Below, piece after piece: positions 1 to 57,740 of a stretch of 64,000 bases of DNA. The DNA lies in the NCBI RefSeq assembly GCF_004210375.1, contig NC_134833.1:147552127-147616126 (forward strand). The letters are read 5' to 3'. This DNA is from Tachypleus tridentatus (Eukaryota; Arthropoda; Merostomata; Xiphosura; Limulidae). The first letter of the stretch is position 1. Each line of letters opens with the position of its first letter. The position numbers were made by a program, and so were the translations under genes. The notes under the pieces are model-generated. The model made no database searches and was not told the DNA's origin. It saw only the letters and a program-made list of their open reading frames with translations.

Positions 1-62
1 GGACGGCTAACTCAGATAGCCCTTGAGTAGCTTTGTGCGAAATTCAAAAACAAAACAAAACA
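1..62 (+). repeat. 3' end of a tRNA-derived SINE, cut by the window edge
   Basis: The first 62 bases match the tail of the SINE seen complete at 38,644-38,915, ending in an A/C-rich tail (repeats of aaaac). The equivalent insertion on the mirror arm is the nearly full-length SINE at 56,927-57,197, and in arm C it is 31,786-32,065. The rest of this copy should lie immediately upstream of the window. Confidence 0.85.
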
Positions 63-1610
63 GTTCTTCTTTTTCATTGTTCGTTGTTTAATTTTAAAAC
101 ATAAAATTATTACTTTTCTCTGTACTCCACTAGACAAGCTTCCGCATTAAATAAGAGTTGTAACATTTTGTAACTTATTTAAATATCACAGGACTTTCAT
201 ATGATCAAGTTCGTTAATATTGGGACTTCAAAAACAGAATTTAGAGCTTTGGTTCCTTTTTCTCTTTATGTTTTATTAAACCTTGTAGATCACGTGCTAT
301 GGACAAAATTAATGTACTTTTAAAAAGGTTTCAAAATATTTTACGTAATTATCTTTTTATCCAGAACGACATTTTTCAAGGTAAGTAAATCATCTTTAAA
401 AATATATGAAATATGAAGCAGAAAAACTTAATGAAAATAATAAATTCTATGAAAACTGAGTGACAAATACAGTTGATCAAGCTACTTATGTAATGAAACA
501 CTCCATCTTTTTTTATAGTTAGTTGATTGTTCCAATATTCAGTAGAATACCGTTTAAAATAATTTTTAACGTGGTTCATATTTACTTTACAATTATGCAA
601 ATGATTTTGAAATTTTAACTTGGTATATTGGTTTAGACCTATGTTAAATATCCTAAACTGGGCGAACATCTGTAGATACTTTAGGAATTACGGCCAATAA
701 CATTATTAACAGATAAATGCATTTTAACATTTATGAACTTTGTGTATCTTGTGGTGTAAGTTACGTTCATCTAATCAGACTATTACAATATTCTTTAATT
801 TGTACGTAACCATTTTAGTTCTATTTGTATATTTAACTTTATCTTAGTCTAAAATTATTAATTAAAATATAAAACCTTGGTTTAAAACAGGTACCAAGTA
901 ATATGTTTATACTATAATAATAAACTTTTTTAAACAAACCAATCATAAATATAAAATGTTATATAATATAATAATCAATTTTAAACTGTTCAGAGATCAG
1001 ACATGTTTTGAACAACATTGTTCTAATTTTTTAGATCAAGTATGGTTTTAATAACACTCAATTTGCAAACAGTGCACTAGCAGCGTAAACATAATTTCAA
1101 TAATACCTAATTTCGAAACTTTGGAAAAACAAAAGGCTTTTACTACTAAAAACATGGTTTCAATACCTGTTGTGGGCCTAGTACAAAAATATCATGATGT
1201 AGGTGTATGCTCATTTAAAACACAAAAACTAGTAAAGAAACAAAACTGCGAAAATGAAATATGATCCTTGGTTCTGCGGTGTAGTGGTTTTCACATCCGG
1301 GTACCAAGTGGAATGTTCCAAGCTGAAACTTCGGTAAGCATTTAAATATTGTAATAGTTTCTCTTCACGCTCTAAATATTGTTCAAATTATATCATTGGA
1401 AAACAATAATGTTTATGTTGCGTATAGAGTTTTCGATGTGTATATTTTGTATTTGAGAAAAACATAAAATACATATAGTTCACCTACTGGTTGGTAAAAG
1501 TATATTGATATTATATCTGACACTTAAACTGATTCTGAAAACCAATTTAAAAAACACCACAGTGAAGAGTCGTCTATGCATAGTAGAAGGGTAACGGAAT
1601 TCGAAACCTG
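63..1610 (+). repeat. Paralogous unit u1: R, Q, 5' flank, W, V blocks; transporter missing
   Basis: Blocks occur in the order R (63-375), Q (376-700), transporter 5' flank (700-970), W (about 975-1,175) and V (about 1,270-1,610), in the orientation that would carry a plus-strand transporter. The coding region is absent: 5'-flank sequence runs almost directly into W. The Q block holds a 97-codon minus-strand open frame (376-669). Its copies differ mostly at codon positions 1 and 2, so I do not call it a gene. W is a degenerate tandem repeat of about 40-45 bp. The mirror copy is u12 at 55,420-57,740. Confidence 0.72.
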
Positions 1611-2146
1611 TTAAATCGCCATCTATCTTTATTTCAACAACTTATGGTCAAGTTGACAGTTAGCATATGAAGATCCAGGTCATATGAAAAGTGAATTGAT
1701 GAATATATATGAAGAATAGCAAGGTTTATCCAAAACCTTTAGAACCATGTGTGGGAAATGTTAAATGTCGATTAAACATAGAGTTTAAATAGTTGCCGTT
1801 AAGAGGAACTTTACTTTCATATAAAATAAAAAAAATATACTATTTAGGGATAATAAGGGATCTATTGGTACAACTCGACTGTCCCATCTTCTAATCCAAC
1901 ATATTATAAATTTTAAAAAATACATCTTAAATCGAATGTTTCTCTTAATAACATAACAAAGTAGTGAAGATGAAGACGGGTAACAAAACCTTCAACATTT
2001 TATTTATAAGTTTTAACGTTTTGGAAAAACTTGTTCCATCATCAGGAATATCTGAAAATTGTGTTAGAAAGGCGATCATTACTAGAATTATAAGGTAACA
2101 TAATAATTAGTTCATTTAATTATTAGAAAAACTGTTAGTGGATGTA
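1611..2146 (-). repeat. Decayed insertion with a hammerhead-like motif, possibly a Penelope-like remnant
   Basis: This segment is absent from the related unit at 33,680-33,770, where V-block sequence continues through a short different stretch, so it looks inserted here (or deleted there). It contains the hammerhead-like motif at 2,010-2,050. I find no recognisable reverse transcriptase in it. The mirror copy at 54,840-55,420 has a 66-codon open frame (55,060-55,260) with no family resemblance I can name. The assignment rests on the ribozyme-like motif alone. Confidence 0.3.
2010..2050 (-). other. Degenerate hammerhead-ribozyme-like motif
   Basis: Read on the minus strand, this holds CTGATGA followed by a short hairpin (tgga pairing with tcca) and then AAAC. 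This resembles the hammerhead core CUGANGA, stem II, GAAA, except that the G after stem II is missing or replaced. Hammerheads of this type are known in Penelope-like retroelements. The mirror copy is at 54,939-54,970. Catalytic activity is unlikely with that change. Confidence 0.4.
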
Positions 2147-2185
2147 TTATATATATATATATAGGAATATATATATATATATATA
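2147..2185. repeat. Imperfect (AT)n microsatellite
   Basis: Two AT runs are separated by a short ggaa interruption. The counterpart on the mirror arm (54,800-54,839) has a slightly different length and interruption, as expected for slippage. Confidence 0.9.
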
Positions 2186-4591: not shown

Positions 4592-5723
4592 TATACTCTT
4601 CGATAAAAGAAACGCAAAAGGCAAAATTAGAGACATATTGTTAACAAGGTTATTTCGGGTAGTTCTGTATGACATGTGTGAAACTTTGCACATTCACTGC
4701 TGAACATCCAACGTCTGCAAAGGCGATGTCCATGCTCACTAGTTGAAGTTTAACGTCAGTCAACGTCAATAACGAGTATGCCCCCTTGTGAGCATCAATA
4801 ACTGCTTGTTATCTCCTGCCCATGGAAGCGATGAGATAACGAATCACATCCTGTGGAATGGCTGTCCACTTAGCCTGCAAAGCTGCTGCAAGCTGAGGTA
4901 GAGTCTGCGGTTTTTGTTGTCGCCGTCGCAGACGTCGGTCCAACTTGTCCCAAAGATGTTTGATGGGGTTTAAATCTGGTGATCTGGAAGGCCTGGGAAG
5001 AACGTAGATGTTGTGGTGTCTCAAGAAGACAGTGGTGAGTCGGGCTGTGTGAAGACGGGCGTTGCCATGTTGAAAAACGTCGTTGACGTTCACCATGATG
5101 GTTTGCACATGTGGCCTAAGAATCTCGTCGACGGCTGCGTACGGTCTGTTCGGAAATCCTACGCAGCCCTGGTATGGTTGAAGCAGTAGACGTTGCAGTG
5201 GTGGTCCTATCCCGAAGGTAACGTAACTGGATGTAGCGATCTTGTGCGTGCGTGGCCACACGAGGTCTGCCAGATCGTGGACGGTCACGAGTTGATCCAT
5301 GTTGTTGGTGACGATTCCATAGCCTTGTGATGGTGCTTGAGTGGACATTCACAGCTCTGGCAACATCTGATCAAGATTCGCCTGCTTCCAAGCGACCAAT
5401 GGCGTTGTTGCGTTCTGCTTCAGTCAGTCTTGGCTTAACTGTATTGCGTGTCGGTGGCTTAACACTGAGCTATGGAAATAGGGAACCCGTCACTTGCAGA
5501 ACATGCAGATCTCTCAAACAAATTTATTGGACACGAATATGTTTTGGCGAAAATTCGATGTTTTTTCCGTTTTCAAAGTGCACAACTTTGATTGTAATTT
5601 TGGTCTGACAATCAATGCCTTAACACGTGTAACATCACATACTCTGAGCTTGTAACGTTATTACATATATTTCTCTTTAAAAAAGAAAAATATCCTTTTC
5701 CGTGTCTTGTTTTGAAGAGTATA
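4592..5723 (-). mobile_element. Internally deleted Tc1/mariner transposon
   Basis: The element is about 1.13 kb, bounded by imperfect terminal inverted repeats that start tatactcttc, with flanking TA. On the minus strand an N-terminal helix-turn-helix part (5,116-5,352, with RPRSGRP) runs into the distal catalytic part (4,809-5,348 frame, with SPDLNPIKHLWD). The first half of the catalytic domain between them is deleted, so the first catalytic Asp is gone. In the FQxDNA motif the Asp is Gly (FQHGNA), and the Glu of NPIEH is Lys. It cannot encode an active transposase. The mirror copy, at the same site with the same deletion, is 51,356-52,485. Confidence 0.9.
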
Positions 5724-9772: not shown

Positions 9773-10401
9773 CTCCTACATTTCCTACACTGTTTGTTGT
9801 GTCTGTCTTACGCCAGTCTGAGGCCTATATTTCCTACATTGTTTGTTGTATCTGCCTAACGCCAGCTTTAAGCCTATATTTTCTACACTATTGGTTGTGT
9901 CTGTCTAACGCCAGTTTTAGGGCTACATTTCCTACACTGTTTGTTGTGTCTGTCTAACGCCAGTTTTAGGGCTACATTTCCTACACTGTTGGTTGTGTCT
10001 GTCTAACGCCAGTCTTAGTCCTACATTTCCTACACTGTTGGTTGTGTCTGTCTAACGCCAGTCTTAGGCCTACATTTCCTACACTGTTTGTTGTGTCTGT
10101 CTAACGCCAGTCTTAGGCCTACATTTCCTACACTGAAGATGGTTGTGTCTGTCTAACGCCAGTCTGAGACCTATATTTCCTACATTGTTTTTGTATCTGC
10201 CTAACGCCAGCCTTAAGCCTATATTTCCTACACTGTTGGTTGTATCTGTCTAACGCCAGTCTTAGTCTTACATTTCCTACACTGTTGGTTGTGTCTGTCT
10301 AACGCCAGTCTTAGGCCTACATTTCCTGCACTGTTGGTTGTGTCTGTCTAACGCCAGTCTTAAGCATACATTTCCTACTCTGTTTGTTGTGTCTGTTGGC
10401 C
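9773..10401 (+). repeat. 49-bp minisatellite, 13 units
   Basis: Thirteen units, the last one partial, of about 49 bp read like ctacatttcctacactgttg followed by a gttgtgtctgtctaacgcc segment. Variant units (tatatttcc types, one with an inserted gaagat) give the array a distinctive order. The mirror array at 46,682-47,310 has the same unit number and the same variant order. The array abuts the hAT relic and may belong to its end. Confidence 0.93.
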
Positions 10402-13430: not shown

Positions 13431-15656
13431 ATCCTTAAAATAAAAGTTCAGTACTTAAATTGCGTCTAAGCTAAGAAAACGTTTTTGGAACACCTACCTT
13501 CAATCCACCACTAGAACACAGTACACTAGTAAATACACATAATATAATTATTTATTTTATATTTTGCCTTTATGGCAAAGTCAATAAGGTTATCTACTGT
13601 GTCCCTAATTTTCTACTGCAGAACAAAAAGAAAGAAAAATCATAACCCTACCACACACACACTAAAAGATTTACCTTCACTCTTAATACACACTAACAGC
13701 TAAACGTTTCGATGAATAGTTTATGGAATCACACAGTATCAATCAATGCTTACGAACTCCGAAACTCAGAGCTCCACCCCAGGATAAACACGACACAAAT
13801 AATGTCAAACATAAATGTATTTTACCAAAGTTAATAATTCATACGTTCTTTATATCATTAAATTCTTGTTATTTTTTGTAAAAATATTTTAATTTTGTTT
13901 TATAAACACATTTAAATTGACAAAGTTTAACTCTTCTTAATATTGACCCAGTCGATTGAAGTAAGGTTTGGGAAAAAAAACAGTTTCAGTACAGTCTATA
14001 CTTCGTAATTAAAGACCATAGTAAAGGGAACAAACTGTCAAAAGCCTGATATAGCAACTTGTTACGACACATTCGTGCATCCTTTAAGGTCTTACGTTAT
14101 CTTCTGCCAGAAATAAAACTAAAAGAAAAAACAACAACAACCAAACATATCAATCAATAAACTAGTTTATCTAATATCAGACTTCAGACAGTTTGTTCAG
14201 TTCACTGTGGTTTTATTTTTCAATATTTGTTACAATGATAACATGTTCTTCTTCTTATTATTATCTCTTGTGATGTACAGTTATTAACCCAGAATTTTCA
14301 TAACATACTCTGCTGGTTAGGGTTGAGAGTTGGCGAAGGTACATACGTTTCTGTTTAAACGAGAAAATTCATTATTAGCTAAATTTACAGATCGGAATTA
14401 ATTGTTTGTTTCAAATTGAAAACCCTGCAGATGGCGAGTTGTTTACGGACAGCATTTCTTGTTTTTTCATTGTCCGTTCTTTAATTTCAAAACATATAAA
14501 ATTATTACTTTTCTCTGTAAATCACTTCACAAGCTTCTGCGTTAAATAATTATCATAATATTTGGTAACTTATTTTGATAGCACAGAACTTTGATAATAT
14601 TAAATTTGTTAATACTAAGACTTTAAAAGCAGAATAGAGAGGTTTGGTTCTTGTTTCTCGATATCATAATAACTTATTGAACCTGGTAGATTACGTGGTG
14701 CAGAAGTAATTAATGTAGTTTTAAAAACCTTTACAAATATTTTATGAAGTTAGTTTTTTATCCGAAATAACATTTTTCAAAGTAAACACAAGTAAAGAAG
14801 TCATCGTTTAAAATATCTGAAATATTCTTCTCATAATTTAGTTCAGATAGAGAGTTATTCACCATCTCTGTAACCAGTAAAACTTAATTGAAAAGAGAAA
14901 TCCTGTTAAACCTGAGTGACAAATACAGTTTATCAAGCTTCTTACGAAATGAAACACTCCATCTTTCTTTATAGCTAGTATATTTTTCAAATATTCAATA
15001 AAATACCGTTTAAAATAACTTTCAACGTGGTTCATATCAACTTTATAACTATGCAAATGGAATTTTAACTTGGTGTATTGGTTTAGAACTATGTTAAATA
15101 TCATAAAATGAACAAATATCTGAAGATATTTTAAGAATTATGTCCAAGAACATTATTAATGGATAAATGCATTTTAACATTTACGAACTTGTGATTTAAG
15201 TTACGTTAATCTAATCAAACTATTATAATAATCATTAATTTGTACGTAACCTTTTTAGTTCTATTTGTATATTTAACATTATCTTGGTCGGAAATTATTA
15301 TTTAAAATACAAAATCGTGGTTTAAAACATATGTACAGATGTAGCAAGAGATATTTTATATGAAAATAATAAACGGACAAAACAGACCGATCATCAATAA
15401 CACGATTTATATACGACATGTTTTTCTATTACAAACATTGAAGACCGTATTATGTTTGTCCTTAGAAAGTAGTTAGGATGAGACCGTGAATAAGTCGTTT
15501 TCAATTCTTCAGAAATATATACTAATAACAAAATCTGAGAAGTGTAGTGCTTTATTGTATTAATACGATATATTAAGAAATAAGTTAATACAAATAAACA
15601 CAAATTAATAGTTTAATTTTTATACGCATCATCTTTCTCGACAAACAACTGTGGAC

Positions 15657-16705
15657 ATGAAAACTTCTGACCAGACATTCAGTTTCAAGAAGTTCAAGAC
15701 TGTTCCTGGAATTGAAATTATTTTGGGAATGACATAAGAATTCATGTATTCTCTGGCGATCCTGAATTTGAAGCTGGTGTCAGAAATTAGTTCGGCCCAG
15801 GTTCTGGTAACTCAAGCTCTTATCCAGTGGAAAATTTATAATGTTTTTATTATTTATTTGAAAGCCAATTACATCGGAGAAGAAGTAGAAAGAATTATTT
15901 TATTTTTTAGAGCTATATTTGGTGGAATAGTAAAAGCACTAATGATATACTGTTTTCATTGGCTCCCTCTTGTGGATGTTTCCACAATCTATTTATCTTC
16001 TCCAGTGTTCATTAGTTTTCTTTGTTTACTTGGTTTTGATAGAACGTTGTGGGGCTAACAATGTATTCGTCTTAATGCTGACGATGACGGGCATTATTTT
16101 AGTTATCAAACCAAAGTTTATTGTACGAACGTTTCAAGATATTCATGACGTAGGTAATCGGTGGAAAGGAATTATTTTTTGATTTTCTCGTGTCTATTGA
16201 AAGCTTGTTGCTATACAATGACAGGCCTGGCATGGCCACGCGCGTAAGGCGTGCGACTCGTAAATTAGGGACGCCTAGCACAAATAGTCCTCGAGTAGCT
16301 TTGTGCAAATTTCCCAAACAAACAAACAAACAAAGCTTTAAAATGGCCCGTAAACTTCATAAAACACCACCTCAAGTTGTGGTTGCCATTATGTCTACAT
16401 TTAGCTTTGTTGCGGGAACTTTTCTGTTGTTCTTGTTCGAAAAAATTCAAATATCATCTTGTGGTAAAAACAGTGTTCTTGTTGTGAGTTCTGGAATTTG
16501 TATGACACTGTATGAACTCCTCACCACAATAACCTTACAAGTGGAAAATGCTGGACCAGTGTCTGTTGCTCAAACTCTAAATATAATTACAGCCTTTTTG
16601 CTCGATATTTTTATATTAAATACCATCGCCACCTGGTGTAGCATTTTTGGCTCTGTTTTAATTTTTGTTGGGGTTCTTTTAACAACATTAAGGAAAGTGA
16701 ATTAG
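15657..16705 (+). pseudogene. SLC35G1-like EamA/DMT transporter pseudogene (copy 1)
   Basis: The sequence is homologous from end to end to the intact gene at 23,169-24,092. The ATG is at 15,657. An in-frame stop follows the GMT residues around codon 28, where the other copies read GMTSGFM. Translation resumes at MYSLAILNLKL, and a frameshift after SPVFIS changes frame into 15,970-16,182. A SINE fragment (16,224-16,334) interrupts the sixth membrane segment, just before MARKL. The C-terminal half (16,335-16,705) stays open to a normal stop. The upstream splice-acceptor-like AG seen in the other copies is changed here. The frameshift and SINE are shared with 40,385-41,427, the stop is private. 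No functional product is expected. Confidence 0.92.
16224..16334 (+). mobile_element. Internally deleted SINE inside the transporter pseudogene
   Basis: The copy joins a partial tRNA head (ggcctggcatggcc to actcgtaa) directly to the 3' part (attagggacg onward) and ends in an (aaac)n tail. The same deleted copy sits at the same codon position in the mirror pseudogene (40,757-40,868) and is absent from the intact gene. Confidence 0.9.
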
Positions 16706-17059
16706 TTCTTAATATTTTCACATAACAATTTACTTCGTGCTGTTATTAATATTATTTGGTTTCTATTATTTTTTGCATAATAGCTTTTTCACTGTTTTAT
16801 CATTACTATTTCAAAGCTTTTGATAACCGATGCTCGTAATGTAGTGAACAATAAATAGTTTTAACATTGATGCTTGAAGTTAAGTCTATAACTTTCGATA
16901 GTTAATAATTATACCACTGATGATACTGGGTAGGAGCTTGAGTTCTACTACTAGTTTTCCAATGATGGTGACATAGATATCCACGTGATGAGTTTGTTGT
17001 TTCACCTTGATGAACGTGGTTAATGGAGATCTGTTTCTGACCTCAATATAAATAATATA

Positions 17060-18460
17060 ATTCTCGATGTTAAGTATGACAGATGTTGATTCATCAGTAT
17101 TATAGATTTCTTTTAGAATCTTAAACACATCAGTCAGATCTCCTCTAGTTTTTATTTTTATCAATTTTGAGATCATAATCCCTCCTCATATGACAACCCT
17201 TCCATCCGAGGTATCATTTTACTTACCATCCTCTGAATATGTTCCAGCATTTTAATGTCCTTCCTATGGTAAGTAGCCTGAGACTAAAAACATTTCATCA
17301 AATTTGACCTAATCAGTGACCTCTACGGTCTAAATCCTATTTGTGTTATCACCACCAAAAGCACACTGCTTTAATGACTTCAGAACTAATCAACGATTAC
17401 ATCAAGGTCACTTCTTTTATGACAATGTTAAGATTATTCTCAAATTATACTTATAATTAAAATTATTATAGGCCCGGCATGGCTGGGTTGTTAAGACGAT
17501 CGACTCCTAATCTGAGAGTTGCTGTTCGAATCCTTGGCATACCAAACGTTCTCGCCCTTTCAGCTGTGAATGCGTTATAATCTCACGGGCAATCCAATTT
17601 ATTGGTAAATAACTTGGGTGGTGATGACTCGCTGCCTTCTCTCTTGTTTTACATTGCAAAATTATGAATGGTGAGCGCAGATAGCTCTCTTATAGGTTTG
17701 CACAAAATTCAAAAAGGAGGAAACAAATTATTTTTACCTACATGCATAATGTTACTTTTATTATGATTACAATTAATATTCCATTTATTTGCTCATCTCA
17801 ATAAATGATCTAAACTATTTTTCACACCATCAATATCCTCTTCAAAGATAGCAATACCCAAAACTTTGACATCATTAACAAATTCAGGTAATATTTTTAT
17901 TTCATCAACATTCCTTCTCGTACCTCATTAAGGTAAATCGAAAACGGGAATGATTCGAAGACTGACATTCATCCAGTTTAACTAAACACCATTCTAATAA
18001 TACTCTTTCACCCAGACACTCTTCTGACCAATTAGTTTACTTATCCCCCATATCTAACGAAATAATATAAGCCTTTTATGTTTCACTTTGTCAAATGCTT
18101 TCTAAAATTCCAGACACAAAATCTACATCCTTAACCTCATCCACCTGAGAAGCAACGTTTAAAAAGAATGTCTGAAAGTTTGCAACACGAGATTTTCTCT
18201 CAGTGAAAATATGTATACTCTCCAATAACGTTCTAAAGTTTATAACATGTTTTATTACAATTTTTCAGCCAGTCGTTTCCTGGTACACCTTTCTTATGTC
18301 CTATTTGACCAACGTTCCTGGTATTCAATAATATTATAAAAGTCTCGTGCTACCACTCAATTCATAATTCTAATATTTGTGATGCTTTTCTTTAATTTTA
18401 TTTCTCATACCCTGTGTAAGCCAACCTGGTGTGTTACTTGCAGCTGTACTTATCGTTCTA
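17060..18460 (-). mobile_element. Degenerate CR1/L2-like LINE, split by a nested SINE
   Basis: Reading on the minus strand from 18,460: the linker (TPGWLTQG, RNKIKEKH), an internal deletion, then RT palm pieces (a VDFV..ILESI stretch standing for the D-x-x-KAFDK block, a GVLQGSVLGP-like region, and an EFVNDVKVLG stretch standing for FADDTK), then a MHVG-like block near 17,750. After the SINE come HIQRMVSKMIPRMEGLSYEE and RGDLTDVFKILK, typical of the LINE ORF2 C-terminus. The catalytic Asp pair is not preserved (FVND). Stops and frameshifts are frequent. The 96-codon open frame at 16,886-17,176 lies partly in this C-terminal piece. Confidence 0.68.
17471..17725 (+). mobile_element. Full-length but diverged tRNA-derived SINE
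   Basis: It begins ggcccggcatggc, has the B-box-like gttcgaatcc, the ctcgccctttcagc body and a degenerate tail, and is inserted in the LINE at 17,060-18,460. It has no counterpart on the mirror arm. It is more diverged than the SINEs at 31,786 or 38,644, so it is probably older. Confidence 0.9.
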
Positions 18461-19275
18461 TAAATAAAATATATAAACACGATTTAAAGAATGTAAGGTA
18501 TGTTGAGCTAAAGTTGGCAAGGTAAGTCCATCTGGTTGCTCTTCCTCAACACAGAAGTTCTAGAATAGAAATGGTTGTGCAAGAACTGTAGAGATTTTAA
18601 AGACAACAAACTTCTTTTAACATGCGATATGGCTTTTCGTTTTAACACGTTGTATTGCACTTAGAATGAAACATAGAAAGAAGTCCAATAAACAAGATAT
18701 ATTTAAAAATTTCTCTTCGTTTCAAACACACGTATTTCATTACCACAATCTGTCTAAACACGTAACGTATCATCATCAGCTGTTAACTTTCTTTGATGAC
18801 TTAAAAATGACTGTGTTTAATAGTTATATGGAAAAAGTTGATAGTCCACAGTAAATTATAGTTTATTTTAACTTTAATTATTGATAAATGAAAGTGTATA
18901 TTCTGAGAAGAAAACATTTCTAACAGCATCATTGTATATCATAATCTAATGTGATATACTAGTCAACAAATTCTGACATCAATAACTAATACAAAAGGGC
19001 CGAATCATATTTTTATTTTATGGTACTTTTGGGAATCAGCCTGAAAATTAACAAAATTCTTTATTTGAATGTTTTTATGGTGCAGTGTTCACCATAAAAA
19101 TTATTTTATTTAGGTGCTAATTAATCTTAACTCACCTAGTGAGGTGTAGAGAAACTAAAGCTTGTAACCTAAATTTTCACCCACAACGAACTGGTGTCAT
19201 TCCATCGTGTAAAAAGTTTGTACCTATAATAAATAAATATATGTATATTCCTCACAATGAGAGATAATTTTCTTT
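18461..19275 (+). repeat. Block D copy, direct to 52,850-53,730
   Basis: Collinear with 52,850-53,730 and inverted relative to 3,300-4,140. Similarity ends near 19,275, where the neighbour at 53,735 continues into LINE sequence and this copy does not. The 62-codon open frame at 18,666-18,854 is on the wrong strand for any relative and is not credible. Confidence 0.7.
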
Positions 19276-19780
19276 ACTAAATAAGGTCTAAATTCATTCC
19301 ATAAAATGAATTTAATTTTCAAACACCATAACAAAAATCGTATAATATGATTAAAAGTCAAATAACTTTAATTGTGTATCTGTTTTGTTACAGTAAAATT
19401 TTTTGTGGTTAGCAATAACATTTAAAAATCTAAGTATCATAAGGTTTAGAGAACATAAGTAAACCCTGAAATGTTAGTTTAGTTTTATATGAAGCAAAAA
19501 AGAAGATGAACATATTATAAAAGAGCTCATGATTGACAAAAAACTTTTTGATACATGAAAAATATCCGTCTGTTCACCTGAACCATCCTAAATACGTTAC
19601 ATAAATCCTTCTAAAAATTGTACTGTTTGAGATATATACAAAATAACTGAAAGAGGTTAATGACACTAGTGTATAGCTCTAGTCATATTTACCATAATCC
19701 TAATAAGTATCGTTAAATATACTAAACTAAGAATTATTGGAAGGATGCTGGGGTGATATTTATAGGTATAATGAACACTT
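19276..19780. other. No recognisable feature
   Basis: AT-rich sequence without a paralogue or open frame that I can support. Confidence 0.55.
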
Positions 19781-20230
19781 TAATACTGCATAATCATCAC
19801 TACTTCTATTACATCAGTCCTTCAGTTATCATTAGTTCAAGTACCTCTGGTTTAGTTGAACATCCTGAGCAGGTGAGAAGAGTGTTGATAAATAAATATA
19901 TACAACATGTAACAACTAAATAGAAAATTTAAATAATAGTCACTCTGGACTATAATGCGTTCATCATAGTTTGGGATTTTGAAAAATCTTTAGCATAAAC
20001 ATTGTTATGTAGCCACATTTATTGAAAGAAAGAAATATTGTAAATATTTCTTTGTTAGTTATACGTGTAGGGTAACCTATATGAAACTTCTGTCAGCTCT
20101 AGTTTTGAAATCACTGATGTAATCTGTCGAATGTTTATACATTTATTTTCTAAAAAGCATCAGCCACCTAATTAAACTTGCTTAACGCACATATAGCATA
20201 GACACAGAATTTTAAATTTAACTCTATCTA
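19781..20230 (-). repeat. Block U' copy with a SINE-free site
   Basis: Collinear with 48,150-48,480 and with the sequence after 48,753. The site at 20,115-20,165 joins both flanks without the SINE present at 48,500-48,753 (and 8,331-8,585). It is therefore an empty-site reference for that insertion. Confidence 0.7.
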
Positions 20231-21970: not shown

Positions 21971-23019
21971 ACTCTTCACTGTAGTGTTTTTTAATTGGTT
22001 TTCCGAATCAGCTTAAATGTCAGATTTAATATCAACATATCTTTACCAACCGGTAGATGGACAATTTATATATGTTTTTCTGAGATATAAAATATACACA
22101 TCGAAAACTCTATACACAACATAAATATTATTGTTTTCCAATGATAGAATATAAACAATATTAGAGCGTGAAGAGAAACTATTACAGTATTAAAATTTTT
22201 ATCGAAGCTCCAGCCTGGAACTTCCCACTTCGTACCTGGATATGATAACAACTGTACCGTATGTAAGTGTAAACTTAGAATCATATTTCATTTTTATAAT
22301 TTTGTTTCTTTACTAGTTTATGTGTTTTAAATGAGCGTAAAGCTACATCATTGTCTATTTGTATCTTAGCCTACAACAGCCATGTTTTTAGTATCAAAAG
22401 TCTTTCGTATTTGCAAAGTTTCAAAACTGGATATTATTGAAGTTATGTTTATACTGCGAGTGAATAGTTTACAACCTGAGTGTTATTAAAACCATGTTTG
22501 ATCTACAACAATTAAAACAATGTTATTAAAAACATGTCTGATCTATAAACAGTTTAAAAAATGAGTATTATTGAAACATACTTGCTCTGAATCGTCCGTG
22601 ATATAAAACACGATAGAAAGATATTTTGACTGACAAACACAGTACGGTTTCTTAGTTAATACATTAGAATAAAATAATATTGATAATAATAACATTTTTT
22701 TGCTAGAACGAGCTAATTAAAATTACAGTTAATATTTACATAATGTGTGATCGATTATAACCTGAATTACGTCATTTTGTTTTATGAAGTAAGTTTACGC
22801 CTACATTAGTTTGTTTGTCTGATAGCGTCAATTATTCTTCGAATACAGCACAATTTATCGATCTAACTGAAATAAGGCGTAACTTCAATATCTTCCACAA
22901 AAAGGTTTCAGTAAAGAAAACGCAGGCAAAGAACATGGAAACTGCTGTAAAATTCTTGCAGTATATTTAATATCCATCGAAAATAATATACTTATCTTCA
23001 AGCATTAGTGTTAAAACTA

Positions 23020-23025
23020 TTTATT
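23020..23025 (-). terminator. Polyadenylation signal AATAAA of the transporter
   Basis: AATAAA lies on the gene strand about 145 bases after the stop codon. The same signal in the same position is kept in the pseudogene copy at 16,850-16,855. Confidence 0.55.
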
Positions 23026-34577: not shown

Positions 34578-34584
34578 GTGGCTT

Positions 34585-35118: not shown

Positions 35119-35339
35119 CTTCCAAAGATTGAATCCAACCTTTTTTTTTTTTTCTACTGAACATTTGACTGTGCAAATCGCTGGTATCAAAACCCAATTT
35201 TTGACCTCCAGTTTGCCGATATTGTGAGTTTTAGTTTTTTTTGTCATATTTTTAGCTTATTAGAAAATTATAAAATTTTCGTGTTTTAAAAAATTAAGGC
35301 CTACACTTTATGTAGTTTTAGAAAAGATGAAAGTTTCTT
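35119..35339. other. No recognisable feature
   Basis: T-rich spacer containing a short poly-T run. A 60-codon minus-strand frame overlaps the SINE end and is not coding. Confidence 0.5.
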
Positions 35340-37301: not shown

Positions 37302-37801
37302 NNNNNNNNNNNNNNNNNNNNNNNNNNNNNNNNNNNNNNNNNNNNNNNNNNNNNNNNNNNNNNNNNNNNNNNNNNNNNNNNNNNNNNNNNNNNNNNNNNN
37401 NNNNNNNNNNNNNNNNNNNNNNNNNNNNNNNNNNNNNNNNNNNNNNNNNNNNNNNNNNNNNNNNNNNNNNNNNNNNNNNNNNNNNNNNNNNNNNNNNNNN
37501 NNNNNNNNNNNNNNNNNNNNNNNNNNNNNNNNNNNNNNNNNNNNNNNNNNNNNNNNNNNNNNNNNNNNNNNNNNNNNNNNNNNNNNNNNNNNNNNNNNNN
37601 NNNNNNNNNNNNNNNNNNNNNNNNNNNNNNNNNNNNNNNNNNNNNNNNNNNNNNNNNNNNNNNNNNNNNNNNNNNNNNNNNNNNNNNNNNNNNNNNNNNN
37701 NNNNNNNNNNNNNNNNNNNNNNNNNNNNNNNNNNNNNNNNNNNNNNNNNNNNNNNNNNNNNNNNNNNNNNNNNNNNNNNNNNNNNNNNNNNNNNNNNNNN
37801 N
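37302..37801. other. Assembly gap, 500 N
   Basis: Exactly 500 N, the usual placeholder for a scaffold join of unknown length. Long open frames reported across it are artefacts of N translation. Left of it is the 5' side of a plus-oriented unit; right of it is the 3' side of a minus-oriented unit. Confidence 1.
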
Positions 37802-38239
37802 TTTCTCATATTTTGAAATTTTGTTTAGAGGATGGGACAACCAAGATGAATTAACATGTATTTTGTCCTCAATAAACTTTATTTTATGATTTAAGAAAAA
37901 TCTTGATCATATGTGAATGATAAGGGCTGGGTTTTAAATATTTATATATTTCACAAGTACAAAATATACACCAGGAAAACACTAATACACAGCTTAAGTG
38001 TAATTGTTTTTCAAGGATAAAGTACGAACAATATTTACAGCGTGAAGAAACACTATTTAAAATTACAATGCCTATCGAAATTCTATCTTGGAACATTACA
38101 CCATATTGAACCTACACTAAACCTTAAGTATATGCTTGGAATCCTCTTTTGTTTTTCCAATTTTGTATTTTACTATTTCACTAGTTTTTGTGTGTTAAGT
38201 GACCATAAAGCAACGTAATTCTCTGTTGCACTGAACTTG

Positions 38240-38560
38240 CTATACGTATTTAAAGTCTGATTTTACTATAATAAGCCTAACATGTCTACAAAGTTTAAAA
38301 ACTGGTTATTATTTATACTATACTTACTGTGCACAGTTTGAAATCTGACTGTTAGTAAAATCAAGTATGCAAAGTTTAAATACGAGTGTTACTGACATTA
38401 TGGTTTCAAAAATTCAAAACTATCTGTTATTGATACCATATCTACAAATTTCAAAAGCTTAATTTTGTTCAAATCGATTTTACATAATTTAAAACTCATT
38501 ATTATTGAAATCATGTTTGTTCTAAAAGGTTGAAAATTGAGTATTATAGAAATCCTACTG
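38240..38560 (+). repeat. Block W, degenerate minisatellite of about 40-45 bp units
   Basis: Roughly seven diverged units built on a core like gtttaaaactgagtattatt plus gaaatcatgtttg and a variable end. Equivalent arrays are at 975-1,175, 22,310-22,600, 33,040-33,235 and 55,820-56,020. This one has the most units. Confidence 0.7.
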
Positions 38561-38643
38561 AATTCGTTGTCAACAATAATTGGTTCAATGATTTTAAGAA
38601 CAGATTTTTTTTACTTTTAGATAAGAATCGTTATAAAAAAATA

Positions 38644-38915
38644 GGGCCAACATGGCCAGGTGGGTTAAGGCGTTCAACTCGTAATCTGAGGGTCGCGGGT
38701 TCGAATCACCGTTGTTCCATATATGCTCGCCCTTTCAGCCGTGGGGGAGTTATAGTGTGACGGTCAATCCCACTATTTGTTGGTAAAAGAGTCGCCCATG
38801 AATTAGCAGTAGGTGGTGATAACTAGGTTCCTTCCTTCTAGTCTTACACTGCAAAATTTGAAACGGTTAACGCAGATTGTTCTCGTGTAGCTTTGCGCGA
38901 AATTAAAAAAACACA
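38644..38915 (+). mobile_element. Full-length tRNA-derived SINE
   Basis: Box A (tggccaggtggg), the anticodon-like ctcgtaatctgagg, box B (ggttcgaatcacc), the body and an A-rich tail. This is the best preserved head in the window. It has no counterpart at the other W blocks, so the insertion is specific to u9. Confidence 0.94.
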
Positions 38916-40039
38916 TAAAAAATATATTCTGAGCCATTAATTTGTATGTTTTGTAAGCTGTAAAATTTACACCTAAAATTAGAACAAAACGATAACAGAA
39001 TGAGTTAAAATATGCCAGGAAGAATAAAGAAAAGCGACACCTATATGGTTGTTTGGGGACCTTCAAAAGTCATTATTTTACTTTATTAGTTCTCTTCATT
39101 TTTCGCTGAATGTATGGTCGGAGGTATAAATACAACTGAGTTAAGGTTAAATGTAAGTGAATTAAACTTGGTAATTTTAAGAAAATATTTTGTTCAGCAC
39201 AATGGAATTATCCTCAAGTGATGACAACGATTGAAACAGAAGAGTTTTGCTTTTAAAATTAGTACTCTCTTTTTAATTTTAAATACTTCTCAATCAGAAT
39301 ATACGTTACAACATAAGTACACAGAGAAAGTTGATGAAAACGTTTGGAGTACTTTCGATAACCTTATTTACACGATCAGTTACAAATGATGTTATGATTT
39401 AAAACTCGAAAGAAATATATTTTGGACGACAAATACAATATGATTTATTAGTTACTATAATAGATTTATATTAATATCAAACAACAATGAGTAGTTGGCA
39501 AAAAGGGACATCTTAAAAACAACTACACTTTTGAAACATTTCAGTATTTACGATCTAACACATTTTTGAATGTTTGTAATTAAGCACAAGCAAACTAATG
39601 AGCTACCTGTGCTCTGTCAACCACGGTTATCGAAACTCATATTTTAGCGTTGTAAGTCAGCAGACATACCGCTTTTCCACTGGGGAACAATTTAACACAT
39701 ATAGCAGCAATAAAGAGTGGCTTAACTTACGTACGGGAAAATGATACAATGATGGACATTTAAGCGAAGGAAAATTCGAAACTACCGCAAATATTTTCCG
39801 GACTCAGCAACAAATAATTGGAAATATAAAGATTTTGTTTTTAATTCATGGTTTATATAAAACTTTATAAAATTGTAAGCAGATGAACGTACACAAGTTT
39901 CAAATATAATGTTGTTTACTTTTTGTTTAAACCATTTCTAACGTAAAAAAAATTAACAGTACGAAAGTTTTTCCTTCTTCTGTAATTTCTTTTTATTTAC
40001 TGTAAATTTCTAAAAACAAACACATGAAGCACAAATAAA
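38916..40039. other. No recognisable feature
   Basis: AT-rich DNA, apparently single-copy in this window. The 87-codon minus-strand frame at 38,803-39,066 starts outside the SINE and runs into it, so it is not a gene. Confidence 0.55.
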
Positions 40040-40384
40040 CACATGGAAGTTTCGTGAAGAAAAATCGAAGCATGTCTCATTGAAACATAGAAAGTTTATT
40101 TTGAGGTCAGAAACAGATCTTTAATAATCACGTTCATCAAAGTGAAACAACAAACTAATCACGTGGATATGTATGTCACCATCATTAACTATCGAAAGTT
40201 ATAGACTTAACTTCAAGCATCAATGTTAAAACTATTTATTGTTCACTACATTACGAGCATCGGTTATCAAAAGCTTTGAAATAGTAATGATAAAACAGTG
40301 AAAAAGTTATTATGCAAAAAATAATAGAAACCAAATAATATTAATAACAGCACGAAGTAAATTGTTATGTGAAAATATTAAGAA

Positions 40385-41427
40385 CTAATTCACTTTCCTT
40401 AATGTTGTTAAAAGAACACCAACAAAAATTAAAACAGCGCCAAAAATGCTACACCAGGTGGCGATGGTATTTAATATGAAAATATCGAACAAAAAGGCTG
40501 TAATTATATTTACAGTTTGAGCAACAGACACAGGTCCAGCATTTTCCACTTGTAAGGCTATTGTGGTGAGGAGTTCATTCAGTGTAATACAAATTCCAGA
40601 ACTCACAACAAGAACACTGTTTTTTACCACAAGATGATATTTGAATTTCTTCGAACAAGAACAGTAGAAAGATTCCGGCAACAAAGCTAAATGTAGACAT
40701 AATGGCAACCACAACTTGAAGTGGTGATTTTTGAAGTTTACGGGCCATTGTAAAGCTTTGTTTGTTTGTTTGTTTGGGAAATTAGCATAAAGCTACTCGA
40801 AGGCTATCTGTGCTAGGCGTCCCCAATTTACGAGTCGCACGCCTTACGCGCGTGGCCATGCCAGGCCTGTCATTGTATAGCAACAAGCTTTCAATAGACA
40901 CGAGAAAATCAAAAAATAATTCCTTTCCTCCTACGTCATGAATATCTTGAAACGTTCGTACAATAAACTTTGGTTTGATAACTAAAATAATGCACGTCAT
41001 CGTCAGCATTAAGACGAATACATTGTAAGCCCCACAACGTTCTATCAAAACCAAGTAAACAAAGAAAACTAATGAACACAGGAGAATATAAATAGATTGT
41101 GGAAGCATCCGCAAGAGGGAGCCAATGAAAACAGTATATCATTAGTGCTTTTACTATTCCACCAAATATAGCTCTAAAAAATAAAATAATTCTTTCTACT
41201 TCTTCTCCGATGTAATTGGCTTTCGAATAAATAATAAAAACATTATAAATTCCCCACTGGATAAGAGCTTGAGTTACCAGAAACTGGGCTGAACTAATTT
41301 CTGACACCAGCTTCAAATTCAAAATCGCCAGAGAATACATGAATCCAGATGTCATTCCCAAAATAATTTTAATTCCAGAAACAGACTTGAACTTCTTGAA
41401 ACTAAATGTCTGGTCAGAAGTTTTCAT
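40385..41427 (-). pseudogene. SLC35G1-like EamA/DMT transporter pseudogene (copy 2)
   Basis: Mirror of 15,657-16,705. The N-terminal part is open for about 163 codons from the ATG at 41,427 and keeps GMTSGFM (no stop there, unlike copy 1). A one-base insertion after SPVFIS shifts the frame, giving a tail of unrelated residues ending near 40,936. The SINE fragment (40,757-40,868) interrupts the sixth membrane segment. A further frameshift is near 40,620, and the C-terminus is then open to the normal stop (40,385). The first 120 or so residues could still be translated but would make only about four membrane segments. Confidence 0.92.
40757..40868 (-). mobile_element. Internally deleted SINE inside pseudogene copy 2
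   Basis: The same deleted SINE as 16,224-16,334 at the same position in the transporter, which shows that the two pseudogenes descend from one already disrupted copy. Confidence 0.9.
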
Positions 41428-43655
41428 GTCCACAGTTGTATGTCGAAGAAGATGCTACGAATAAAATTAAACTATTAATTTGTGTCTATTTGTAATAACT
41501 TATTTCTAAATATATCTTATTAATACAATAAAGCACTACACTTCTCAGATTTTGTTGTTAGTATATATTTCTGAAGAATTGAAAACGACTTATTCACGGT
41601 TTCATCCTAATTCCTTTCTAAGGACAAACATAATACGGTCTTCAATGTTTGTAATAAAAAATATGTCGTATATAAATCTTGTTATTGATGATCGGTCTGT
41701 TTTGTCAGTTTATTATTTTCATATAAAATTATCTCTTGCTATTTCTGTACATATGTTTTAAACCAGGATTTTGTATTTTAAATAATAATTTCCGACCAAG
41801 ATAATGTCAAATATACAAATAGAACTAAAAAGGTTACGTACAAATTAATGATTATTATAATAGTTTGATTAGATTAACGTAACTTAAATCACAAGTTCGT
41901 AAATGTTAAAATGCATTTATCCATTAATAATGTTCTTGGACATAATTCTTAAAATATCTTCAGATATTTGTTCACTTTATGATATTTAACATAGTTCTAA
42001 ACCAATACACCAAGTTAAAATTCCATTTGCATAGTTATAAAGTTGATATGAACCACGTTGAAAGTTATTTTAAACGGTATTTTATTGAATATTTGAAAAA
42101 TATACTAGCTATAAAGAAAGATGGAGTGTTTCATTTCGTAAGAAGCTTGATAAACTGTATTTGTCACTCAGGTTTAACAGGATTTCTCTTTTCAATTAAG
42201 TTTTACTGGTTACAGAGATGGTGAATAACTCTCTATCTGAACTAAATTATGAGAAGAATATTTCAGATATTTTAAACGATGACTTCTTTACTTGTGTTTA
42301 CTTTGAAAAAAGTTATTTCGGATAAAAAACTAACTTCATAAAATATTTGTAAAGGTTTTTTAAAACTACATTAATTACTTCTGCACCACGTAATCTACCA
42401 GGTTCAATAAGTTATTATGATATCGAGAAACAAGAACCAAACCTCTCTATTCTGCTTTTAAAGTCTTAGTATTAACAAATTTAATATTATCAAAGTTCTG
42501 TGCTATCTAAATAAGTTACCAAATATTACGATAATTATTTAACGCAGAAGCTTGTCAAGTGATTTACAGAGGCAAGTAATAATTTTATATGTTTTGAAAT
42601 TAAAGAACGGACAATGAAAAAACAAGAAATGCTGTCCGTAAACAACTCGCCATCTGCAGGGTTTTCAATTTGAAACAAACTAATAATTCAGATCTGTAAA
42701 TTTAGCTAATAATGAATTTTCTCGTTTAAACAGAAACGTATGTACCTTCGCCAACTCTCAACCCTAACCAGCAGAGTATGTTATGAAAATTCTGGGTTAA
42801 TAACTGTACATCACAAGAGATAATAATAATAAGAAGAACATGTTATCATTGTAACAAATATTGAAAAATAAAACCACAGTGAACTGAACAAACTGTCTGA
42901 AGTCTGATATTAGATAAACTAGTTTATTGATTGATATGTTTGGTTGTTGTTGTTTTTTCTTTTAGTTTTATTTCTGGCAGAAGATAACGTAAGACCTTAA
43001 AGGATGCACGAATGTGTCGTAACAAGTTGCTATATCAGGATTTTGACAGTTTGTTCCCTTTACTATGGTCTTTAATTACGAAGTATAGACTGTACTGAAA
43101 CTGTTTTTTTCCCAAACCTTACTTCAATCGACTGGGTCAATATTAAGAAGAGTTAAACTTTGTCAATTTAAATGTGTTTATAAAACAAAATTAAAATATT
43201 TTAACAAAAAATAACAAGAATTTAATGATATAAAGAACGTATGAATTATTAACTTTGGTAAAATACATTTATGTTTAACATTATTTGTGTCGTGTTTATC
43301 CTGGGGTGGAGCTCTGAGTTTCGGAGTTCGTAAGCATTGATTGATACTGTGTGATTCCATAAACTATTCATCGAAACGTTTAGCTGTTAGTGTGTATTAA
43401 GAGTGAAGGTAAATCTTTTAGTGTGTGTGTGGTAGGGTTATGATTTTTCTTTCTTTTTTGTTCTGCAGTAGAAAATTAGGGACACAGTAGATAACCTTAT
43501 TGACTTTGCCATAAAGGCAAAATATAAAATAAATAATTATATTATGTGTATTTACTAGTGTACTGTGTTCTAGTGGTGGATTGAAGGTAGGTGTTCCAAA
43601 AACGTTTTCTTAGCTTAGACGCAATTTAAGTACTGAACTTTTATTTTAAGGATAT

Positions 43656-46681: not shown

Positions 46682-47310
46682 GGCCAACAGACACAACAAA
46701 CAGAGTAGGAAATGTATGCTTAAGACTGGCGTTAGACAGACACAACCAACAGTGCAGGAAATGTAGGCCTAAGACTGGCGTTAGACAGACACAACCAACA
46801 GTGTAGGAAATGTAGGCCTAAGACTGGCGTTAGACAGATACAACCAACAGTGTAGGAAATATAGGCTTAAGGCTGGCGTTAGGCAGATACAAAAACAATG
46901 TAGGAAATATAGGTCTCAGACTGGCGTTAGACAGACACTACCATCTTTAGTGTAGGAAATGTAGGCCTAAGACTGGCGTTAGACAGACACAACAAACAGT
47001 GTAGGAAATGTAGGCCTAAGACTGGCGTTAGACAGACACAACCAACAGTGTAGGAAATGTAGGACTAAGACTGGCGTTAGACAGACACAACCAACAGTGT
47101 AGGAAATGTAGCCCTAAAACTGGCGTTAGACAGACACAACAAACAGTGTAGGAAATGTAGCCCTAAAACTGGCGTTAGACAGACACAACCAATAGTGTAG
47201 AAAATATAGGTTTAAAGCTGGCGTTAGGCAGATACAACAAACAATGTAGGAAATATAGGCCTCAGACTGGCGTTAGACAGACACAACAAACAGTGTAGGA
47301 AATGTAGGAG
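46682..47310 (-). repeat. 49-bp minisatellite, 13 units, mirror copy
   Basis: Thirteen units in the same variant order as 9,773-10,401, with only scattered single-base differences (for example within the gaagat-type variant unit near 46,935-46,950). Confidence 0.93.
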
Positions 47311-51355: not shown

Positions 51356-52485
51356 TATACTCTTCAAAACAAGACACGGAAAAGGATATTTTTCTTTTTT
51401 AAAGAGAAATATATGTAATAACGTTACAAGCTCAGAGTATGTGATGTTACACGTGTTAAGGCATTGATTGTCAGACCAAAATTACAATCAAAGTTGTGCA
51501 CTTTGAAAACGGAAAAAACATCGAATTTTCGCCAAAACATATTCGTGTCCAATAAATTTGTTTGAGAGATCTGCATGTTCTGCAAGTGACGGGTTCCCTA
51601 TTTCCATAGCTCAGTGTTAAGCCACCGACACGCAATACAGTTAAGCCAAGACTGACTGAAGCAGAACGCAACAACGCCATTGGTCGCTTGGAAGCAGGCG
51701 AATCTTGATCAGTTGATGCCAGAGGTGTGAATGTCCACTCAAGCACCATCACAAGGCTATGGAATCGTCACCAACAACATGGATCAACTCGTGACCGTCC
51801 ACGATCTGGCAGACCTAGTGTGGCCACGCACGCACAAGATCGCTACATCCAGTTACGTTACCTTCGGGATAGGACCACCACTGCAACGTCTACTGCTTCA
51901 ACCATACCAGGGCTGCGTAGGATTTCCGAACAGACGGTACGCAGCCGTCGACGAGATTCTTAGGCCACATGTGCAAACCATCATGGTGAACGTCAACGAC
52001 GTTTTTCAACATGGCAACGCCCTTCTTCACACAGCCCGACTCACCACTGTATTCTTGAGACACCACAACATCTACGTTCTTCCCAGGCCTTCCAGATCAC
52101 CAGATTTAAACCCCATCAAACATCTTTGGGACAAGTTGGACCGACGTCTGCGACGGCGACAACAAAAACCGCAGACTCTACCTCAGCTTGCAGTAGCTTT
52201 GCAGGCGAAGTGGACAGCCATTCCACAGGATGTGATTCGTTTCTCATCGCTTCCATGGGCAGGAGATAACAAGCAGTTATTGATGCTCACAAGGGGCATA
52301 CTCGTTATTGACGTTGACTGACGTTAAACTTCAACTAGTGAGCATGGACATCGCCTTTGCAGACGTTGGATGTTCAGCAGTGAATGTGCAAAGTTTCACA
52401 CATGTCATACAGAACTACCCGAAATAACCTTGTTAACAATATGTCTCTAATTTTGCCTTTTGCGTTTCTTTTATCGAAGAGTATA
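51356..52485 (+). mobile_element. Internally deleted Tc1/mariner transposon, mirror copy
   Basis: The same element, terminal repeats and internal deletion as 4,592-5,723. The N-terminal frame is 51,727-51,963, and the distal frame is 51,731-52,321. Here a further frameshift after QDVIR changes the C-terminus, which on the left arm continues YLIASMGRR and stops. Confidence 0.9.
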
Positions 52486-54839: not shown

Positions 54840-54938
54840 ACATCCACAAACAGTTTTTCTAACAATTAAATGAACTAATTATTATGTTACCTTATAATTC
54901 TAGTAATGATCGCCTTTCTAAAACAATTTTCAGATATT

Positions 54939-54970
54939 CCTGATGATGGAACAAGTTTTTCCAAAACGTT
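54939..54970 (+). other. Degenerate hammerhead-ribozyme-like motif, mirror copy
   Basis: CTGATGA, a tgga/tcca stem and AAACG, as at 2,010-2,050. The surrounding 54,840-55,420 is the decayed insertion missing from u6. Confidence 0.4.
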
Positions 54971-55419
54971 AAAACTTATAAATAAAATCTTGAAGGTTTT
55001 GTTACCCGTCTTCATCTTCACTACTTTGTTATGTTATTAAGAGAAACATTCGATATAACATGTATTTTTTAAAATTTATAATATGTTGGATTAGAAGATG
55101 GGACAGTCGAGTTGTACCAATAGATCCCTTATTATCCCTAAATAGTATATTTTTTTTTATTTTATATGAAAGTAAAGTTCCTCTTAACGGCAACTATTTA
55201 AACTCTATGTTTAATCGATATTTAACATTTCCCACACATGGTTCTAAAGGTTTTGGATAAACCTTGCTATTCTTCATATGTATTCATCAATTCACTTTTC
55301 ATATGACCTGGATCTTCCCATGCTAACTGTCAACTTGACCATAAGTTGTTGAAATAAAGATAGATGGCGCTTTAACAGGTTTCGAATTCCGTTACCCTTC
55401 TACTATGCATAGACGACTC

Positions 55420-57740
55420 TTCACTGTGGTGTTTTTTAAATTGGTTTTCAGAATCAGTTTAAGTGTCAGATATAATATCAATATACTTTTACCAACCAGT
55501 AGGTGAACTATATGTATTTTATGTTTTTCTCAAATACAAAATATACACATCGAAAACTCTATACGCAACATAAACATTATTGTTTTCCAATGATATAATT
55601 TGAACAATATTTAGAGCGTGAAGAGAAACTATTACAATATTTAAATGCTTACCGAAGTTTCAGCTTGGAACATTCCACTTGGTACCCGGATGTGAAAACC
55701 ACTACACCGCAGAACCTAGAATCATATTTCATTTTCGCAGTTTTGTTTCTTTACTAGTTTTTGTGTTTTAAATGAGCATACACCTACATCATGATATTTT
55801 TGTACTAGGCCCACAACAGGTATTGAAACCATGTTTTTAGTAGTAAAAGCCTTTTGTTTTTCCAAAGTTTCGAAATTGGGTATTATTGAAATTATGTTTA
55901 CGCTGCTAGTGCACTGTTTGCAAATTGAGTGTTATTAAAACCATACTTGATCTAAAAAATTAGAACAATGTTGTTCAAAACATGTCTGATCTCTGAGCAG
56001 TTTAAAATTGATTATTATATTATATAACCTTTTATATTTATGATTGGTTTGTTTAAAAAGTTTATTATTATAGTATAAACATATTACTTGGTACCTGTTT
56101 TAAACCAAGGTGTTATATTTTAATTAATAATTTTAGACTAAGATAAAGTTAAATATACCAATAGAACTAAAATGGTTACGTACAAATTAAAGAATATTGT
56201 AATAGTCTGATTAGATGAACGTAACTTACACCACAAGATACACAAAGTTCATAAATGTTAAAATGCATTTATCTGTTAATAATGTTATTGGCCGTAATTC
56301 CTAAAGTATCTACAGATGTTCGCCCAGTTTAGGATATTTAACATAGGTCTAAACCAATATACCAAGTTAAAATTTCAAAATCATTTGCATAATTATAAAG
56401 TAAATATGAACCACGTTAAAAATTATTTTAAACGGTATTCTACTGAATATTGGAACAATCAACTAACTATAAAAAAAGATGGAGTGTTTCATTACATAAG
56501 TAGCTTGATCAACTGTATTTGTCACTCAGTTTTCATAGAATTTATTCTTTTCATTAAGTTTTTCTGCTTCATATTTCATATATTTTTTAAAGATGATTTA
56601 CTTACCTTGAAAAATGTCATTCTGGATAAAAAGACAATTACGTAAAATATTTTGAAACCTTTTTAAAAGTACATTAATTTTGTCCATAGCACGTGATCTA
56701 CAAGGTTTAATAAAACATAAAGAGAAAAAGGAACCAAAGCTCTAAATTCTGTTTTTGAAGTCCCAATATTAATGAACTTGATCATATGAAAGTCCTGTGA
56801 TATCTAAATAAGTTACAAAATGTTACAACTATTATTTAATGCGGAAGCTTGTCAAGTGGATTACAGAGAAAAGTAATAATTTTATGTGTTTTGAAATTAA
56901 ACAACGGACAATGAAAAAGAAGTACTGTTTTGTTGAATTTCGCACAAAGCTACTCGAGGGATATCTGCGCTAGTCGTCCCTAATTTAGCAGTGTAAGACT
57001 AGAGGGAGGGAAACTAGTCATCACCAACCACCGCCAACTCTTGGGATACTCTTTTACAAACGAATTGTGAAATTGACCGTAACATTATAATGTCCACACG
57101 GCTAAAAAGGCGAGCATGTTTGGTGCGACGAGCATTCGAACCCGCAACCCTCGGATTCGAAGTCGAGTACTTTAACCACCTGGCCATACCGGACCCGAGA
57201 AATGTTATCCGTAAAAAATTCACCAATACATAATCAGGGTTGTCGTCATAATTTATAAGTAGAATCAAAGTAACAATAAAATATGTAAACTTAGCTAATA
57301 ATTAATTTTTGTCATTTAAACTGAAACGTTTGTATCTTATTATACTCTAAACCTTTATCACAATAATACCCTATCAAAATTCTGTTAATAATATTCTGAA
57401 TTGATACATTACAAAAGATAATACTACTAATAATAACATATTTCGTTGTAACAAATATCGAAAAATAGAACCACAGTAAACAGAACAAACTGTCTGAACT
57501 CTGATATTAGATAAACTAGTTTAATGACCAATATTTTTGTTTGTGTTTCTGTTGTTGTTTTCTTCCTGACTAAAAATGACGCATGAATGTGTCGAAATAA
57601 GTGTCTCCTATATAAAGCTTTTCACAGTTCGTTACTTTTAGTGTGGTTTTTAATCCATGAAAGAGAAATTGTAGCGAAAATCTTTTTTTCTCTAACTTTA
57701 TTCCAATCGACTATTACCTTTAACGAACAATAAAGGAAAG
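55420..57740 (-). repeat. Paralogous unit u12: V, W, Q, R; transporter missing
   Basis: V (55,420-55,740), W (55,820-56,020), the transporter-deletion junction (about 56,020-56,100), 5' flank, Q (56,316-56,660), R (56,660-57,740, containing a SINE). Its Q open frame has 109 codons and matches the 97-codon frame in u1. Confidence 0.72.
56927..57197 (-). mobile_element. Full-length tRNA-derived SINE, mirror copy
   Basis: The same insertion as 31,786-32,065 and 1-62. Box B and the ctcgaatccgagg-like anticodon arm are slightly altered. Confidence 0.94.

Follow-up and report, generated by a model that had tools for sequence, protein, structure and literature searches.

Redundant contigs placed back to back probably account for a mirror-image transporter locus in the Tachypleus tridentatus assembly

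According to Ko et al. 2022 (PMC9516828), the marks of false duplication include halved read depth and a gap that separates the two copies on the same scaffold, and short contigs are presented as hard to orient in the HiC-Hiker paper (PMC7672694). Both descriptions have a bearing on a stretch of 64,000 nucleotides of Tachypleus tridentatus (C9:147,552,127-147,616,126, where C9 stands for NC_134833.1 of the 2.17-Gb assembly GCF_004210375.1), referred to below as the window, in which two near-identical segments of an EamA-like transporter gene array face each other as mirror images. This mirror image is very probably an artefact of assembly, produced when redundant contigs of one transporter tandem array were scaffolded back to back, and the palindrome is most likely not a real feature of the genome. 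Positions are given in window coordinates throughout, with negative values lying to the left of the window and values above 64,000 to its right. All comparisons were made on the assembled letters using the Basic Local Alignment Search Tool (BLAST), MAFFT, Tandem Repeats Finder (TRF), Pfam and a protein search of the whole assembly; three stretches of C9 (144.447-144.457 Mb, 144.507-144.76 Mb and 147,682,127-147,716,126) lie outside the comparison.

As can be seen directly in the assembly, the arms of the palindrome sit in two separate islands bounded by gaps. The left island, contig A, extends from -45,118 to 37,301 (82,420 bp) and the right one, contig B, from 37,802 to 112,858 (75,057 bp), with no N inside either of them. 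Contig A is preceded by a 500-N gap at C9:147506508-147507007, contig B is followed by another at window 112,859-113,358, and the centre of the palindrome is itself a 500-N gap, with no continuous sequence across it. Gaps of 500 N are typical of some scaffolders. The initial annotation, which had described a 17-kb inverted duplication around a 23-kb spacer, was correct as to the presence of the central gap. However, positions 17,052-37,301 of this spacer turned out to repeat the array unit once more instead of being unique, and because the N run is of fixed length, the coordinates do not give the length of the spacer.

The orientation of the repeats follows the contigs. When BLAST matches were limited to those at least 1 kb long and at least 93% identical, the comparison of contig A with itself yielded 14 direct and no inverted matches and that of contig B with itself 5 and none, whereas all 24 matches between A and B were inverted. 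The ungapped sequence of C9:144.457-144.497 Mb behaved in the same manner, with 20 direct and no inverted matches to A, and with no direct and 11 inverted matches to B. No orientation switch independent of the contig ends was found within A or B at these thresholds. Since strong matches are uniform in orientation within the contigs and opposite between them, direction appears as a property of the contig, changing at the gap.

Once contig B is reversed, it and the forward contig A are both collinear with gap-free sequence at C9:144.457-144.507 Mb, 3.1 Mb away, mostly at 97-99.9% identity. Reversed B follows 144.457-144.4889 Mb, differing by 4 substitutions over the initial 8 aligned kb and by 0.2-3.4% per kb thereafter, and departs from this stretch at 71.9 kb of B, where divergence jumps to ~8%. 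Forward A follows 144.4788-144.5051 Mb, its first 9,950 aligned columns containing 36 substitutions (0.36%); identity to 144.4839-144.4962 Mb is 98.9% (BLAST), that over the last 8 kb is 97.6%, and ~0.76 kb, part of a gene, is missing from A near -27.68 kb relative to the 144-Mb stretch. Over 144.4788-144.4889 Mb three versions can be compared: the 144-Mb copy differs from A by 0.36% and from B by 1.90% substitutions, and A differs from B by 2.04%. Two marks of false duplication are found here, namely a gap between the duplicated pair on one scaffold and a collinear, near-identical copy elsewhere (144.457-144.489 Mb for B, 144.479-144.505 Mb for A).

Redundancy extends to the neighbouring contigs. 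The contig after B (start 147,665,485; compared as C9:147665485-147682126) repeats window 85,377-102,026, and over these 16.6 kb BLAST reports 19 substitutions and 57 gap openings, an indel-dominated pattern which appears error-like and points to an unmerged duplicate. Farther to the right, the 10 kb of 147,716,127-147,726,126, read in reverse, differ from 144.4217-144.4317 Mb by 13 substitutions and 16 gap openings; part of the centre of a foldback at 144.43 Mb, discussed below, recurs within them. The contig to the left of A (C9:147504126-147506506) is a collinear copy of C9:145667377-145669762, at 98% and 95% identity in the two pieces tested, and is likely to be another redundant contig. 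With copies of 144 Mb, of 145.667 Mb and of B itself in the surrounding sequence, the neighbourhood resembles a row of redundant contigs.

Within the window, positions 1-4,372 are the reverse complement of 56,979-52,602 (97.5% identity, BLAST) and positions 4,474-16,909 that of 52,603-40,181 (98.7%, BLAST). An end-to-end MAFFT alignment of the arms, as far as they lie in the window, comprises 16,670 columns; it contains 215 substitutions (1.29%) and 42 gap runs. The coordinates and the inner edge of the 17-kb match had thus been placed correctly, but the match is cut by the window edge and the arm is in fact nearly twice as long: it leaves the window on both sides, pairing -14,962..16,909 with 71,937..40,181 (~31.8 kb), with 283 substitutions (0.89%) and 80 gap runs in 31,659 aligned columns (MAFFT). 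Past 16,909/40,181 the left copy carries a 54-bp insertion, followed by 92 matching bases (91%) up to 17,052/40,095, and past the arm edges homology to other units goes on at lower identity.

The arms had also been said to share every transposon, truncation and minisatellite variant. The minisatellite is indeed found at the same place, with 12.7 units in each arm, but substitutions range from 0 to 5% by block and the arms differ by an indel of ~100 bp. In blocks of 500 columns, substitutions amount to 0-0.2% over about -8.5 to -1 kb (one block 1.0%) and over 7.0-8.5 kb, to 0.6-4.3% over 2-4.5 kb, and to ~5% at 15.5-16.5 kb. The difference in length lies near 4.4 kb (window 4,372-4,474 against 52,602) and adjoins a repeat which recurs in other units. 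The differences between the arms are mostly substitutions (283 against 80 gap runs) and not dominated by indels; they look like those of haplotypes or paralogues. Neighbouring units are ~4-9% apart, compared with 0.89% for the arms, a pattern predicted alike by allelism and by gene conversion.

Truly unrelated inner flanks, as claimed in the initial annotation, are refuted by the identity of the right flank, which is ordinary unit sequence with further copies at 88.85-91.15 kb and C9:144.4692-144.4715 Mb. In contig A ~2.5 kb of the unit are missing at this point, and contig B stops ~180 bp short of where homology to A would resume. At the outer end, reversed B equals A minus one 20.16-kb unit (-35,120..-14,963), switching cleanly from the -35.1-kb position of A to its -14.96-kb position. 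In the 2 kb before this junction, B is 1.84% from unit 2 of A and 8.1% from the pre-arm sequence of A; over the 1.5 kb that follow, the distances are 1.13% to the arm of A and 6.9% to unit 3 of A. This switch in divergence indicates that one unit is present or absent between A and B. Two large indels, the inner one of ~2.5 kb and the outer one of a 20.16-kb unit, would align A with reversed B, as may be expected for two haplotypes of an unequally crossing-over array; they also answer the objection that a simple haplotig would need extra rearrangement.

The following course of events may be proposed. The array of this organism, composed of ~20-kb units with EamA genes that are mainly head-to-tail in the parts read, would be represented at C9:144.40-144.76 Mb. 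Redundant contigs of the array, derived from the other haplotype and/or from duplicated contig ends, would have escaped removal and would have entered the scaffold ~3.1 Mb away, as small islands flanked by runs of 500 N, with contig A placed forward and contig B backward. With A forward and B backward, homologous segments of the same direction come to face each other as a palindrome. A and B may well be alleles, the gaps suggest that both were placed by Hi-C-type scaffolding, and it is either the orientation of B or its very presence that would be wrong. Of the two options offered originally, a haplotype scaffolded backwards across the gap has thus gained support, while the palindrome has found little support beyond the letters.

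Several observations weigh against such an origin of the mirror image. The patchy divergence of the arms (0 to 5%) could also be obtained by gene conversion, and the three versions of 144.4788-144.4889 Mb exceed what a simple diploid needs unless one of them is a redundant copy. Moreover, for 1 kb of the arm (5-6 kb) the best match in the 144-Mb cluster is 93%, and none reaches 99%, among the 40 candidates scored out of 1931. The 144-Mb contig therefore does not represent A and B as a complete allele, and its role as a single complete allele of the arms was rejected on account of this one tested place. The census, too, becomes less uniform when loosened to 90% and 85% identity: inverted matches of A with itself then number 1 and 5, those of B with itself 0 and 2, and direct matches between A and B 1 and 6. 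Of the five inverted matches within A, two pair oppositely oriented gene copies of the unit and three share the repeat at 3,253-4,462; the 100 direct matches of B with itself at 85% presumably stem from the minisatellite. At the same two thresholds C9:144.457-144.497 Mb gives 1 and 3 inverted matches to A and 0 and 2 direct matches to B. The other part of the 144-Mb cluster that was read, C9:144.397-144.447 Mb, compared with A only, is mixed, with 1 direct and 3 inverted matches at 93% and 12 and 16 at 85%. Finally, an ungapped foldback of the array unit is present at 144.416-144.447 Mb, with its centre at ~144.4275-144.4331 Mb and arms ~92% identical. This inverted pair looks like a genuine, older foldback, and since orientation switches there, at 144.43 Mb, without a gap, inverted copies can really arise in this family.

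It is unlikely that A and B are both real sequence of a single locus at 147.5 Mb, with B misoriented, in which case they would form another tandem array of direct units, derived from the 144.4-Mb cluster by segmental duplication. Flipping B does turn all strong repeats between A and B (at least 1 kb, at least 93%) direct, no 99% partner of the arms was found in the 144-Mb contig for the single kilobase compared (40 of 1931 candidates scored), and short contigs are described as prone to orientation error in PMC7672694. However, divergence from 144.457-144.489 Mb is as low as 0.05-0.4% in parts of A and B, the sequence shared by B and the next contig shows differences of the indel type, and 145.667 Mb, too, has a near-copy in the flanking contig. 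These three observations are explained together by redundant assembly.

Somewhat less probable still is a genuine palindrome of ~32 kb (or of 42 kb, less one unit), carrying the transporter family on arms that would be either young or kept alike by conversion. At the thresholds of at least 93% and at least 1 kb, inverted repeats are absent within each of A and B, and the 24 repeats that link the two contigs are all inverted; gaps isolate each contig on either side, a single ungapped stretch is followed by A and by reversed B in the same direction, and on the B side the inner end marks where the contig stops, not the breakpoint of a duplication. These facts stand against arms which, at 0.89% over 31.8 kb, combine near-zero tracts with adjacent tracts of 2-5%, as conversion would give, and against the inverted, ungapped and older pair of array units at 144.416-144.447 Mb, 10 kb of which, including part of its centre, recur at 147.716-147.726 Mb. 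The same low probability applies to the fuller scenario, in which a palindrome of transporter-gene units with conversion-homogenised arms would have arisen from a tandem array that also yielded the cluster 3 Mb away and the older foldback at 144.43 Mb. An inverted repeat made by a transposon was rejected, since the arms contain mobile-element fragments, yet the arm ends are unit sequence, past which homology to other units extends at lower identity, and chance similarity is ruled out by 31.8 kb at 0.89% substitutions.

Redundant contigs scaffolded back to back remain the preferred explanation, and the features which they carry in the window are listed in Table 1. The region is an array of units of ~20 kb each, bearing EamA-like transporter genes and pseudogenes, and the genes are EamA transporters of an ordinary kind. 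A sequence search of the transporter against solved structures gave no useful match (one row, expectation value E 0.82). The protein search of the whole assembly for the EamA family returned at least 131 matches, among which close members of the family occur at two sites of C9, 144.41-144.76 Mb and 147.51-147.72 Mb, and distant members elsewhere in the assembly. The distant EamA-like genes are grouped on other chromosomes, C6, C4, C13 and C2, for example at C4:31.9-33.6 Mb and C6:132-146 Mb. The 49-bp minisatellite is expanded to ~134 units where contig B breaks off (106,168-112,858), and a search with this end of B landed on the minisatellite. Part of the 1 kb around the left DDE transposase fragment has many copies in the genome.

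Table 1. Coordinates of the features of the window in contigs A and B.
Feature	Position	Strand	Basis
Left arm, in-window part of the 31.8-kb segment that starts at -14,962; contig A	1..16909	+	BLAST, MAFFT
DDE transposase fragment, left arm	4809..5348	-	Pfam; only left copy scanned
49-bp minisatellite, 12.7 units, left arm	9775..10396	+	TRF
Repeat block with EamA-family pseudogene, in-frame stops, inner end of left arm	15427..16909	+	DNA block and protein search (C9:147567726-147568828)
Further head-to-tail unit copy, right end of contig A, ~94-95% like -33,296..-17,534	17059..37301	+	
Open 334-aa EamA-like transporter frame, in spacer	23169..24173	-	Pfam PF00892, 71 bits against cut-off 28.2
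500-N scaffold gap between contigs A and B, where unit orientation switches	37302..37801	.	
Inner flank of right arm, ordinary unit sequence, absent from contig A between 17,052 and 17,059	37802..40094	-	
Right arm, reverse complement of left arm, continuing to 71,937; contig B	40181..56979	-	BLAST, MAFFT
Counterpart repeat block with EamA-family pseudogene, right arm	40186..41664	-	DNA block and protein search (C9:147592514-147593604)
49-bp minisatellite, 12.7 units, right arm	46687..47308	-	TRF, converted from reverse-strand coordinates
Open frame similar to the DDE transposase fragment, right arm	51731..52321	+	

Being most likely a product of scaffolding, the palindrome as such is without importance. 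Several EamA copies at 147.5 Mb repeat copies of 144.4 Mb, and every copy within an arm enters the count two times; hence gene-family size, as well as segmental-duplication and inversion calls made from this scaffold, would be inflated. Should A and B be alleles, however, a real event would lie behind the locus, that is, two haplotypes that differ by an entire 20-kb unit, cleanly joined, and such a difference is what unequal crossing over in the transporter array would leave.

In comparison with described systems, the locus shares with conversion-maintained palindromes of sex chromosomes, such as P6 of the human Y as presented in PMC3723533, a large gene-bearing inverted repeat with high identity of the arms. 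Unlike in P6 as given in that source, arm identity here is patchy, at ~99.1% when substitutions alone are counted, with an assembly gap at the centre. The likeness to misoriented short contigs in Hi-C scaffolds, as treated in PMC7672694, consists in a gap-bounded contig, tens of kb long, which runs against the direction of its homologues, although the Hi-C origin of the present assembly is presumed from its gaps. The false duplications classified by Ko et al. 2022 (PMC9516828) were assigned by read depth and heterozygous k-mers, whereas here the letters alone were used, and, in contrast to the cases set out there, the copies stand in opposite orientation, in an array with a unit-sized difference in length. 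With the false (heterotype/homotype) duplications of the same source (PMC9516828), the mirror-image locus nevertheless shares near-identical copies on one scaffold with a gap between them, inflated gene copies, and adjoining redundancy with indel-type differences.

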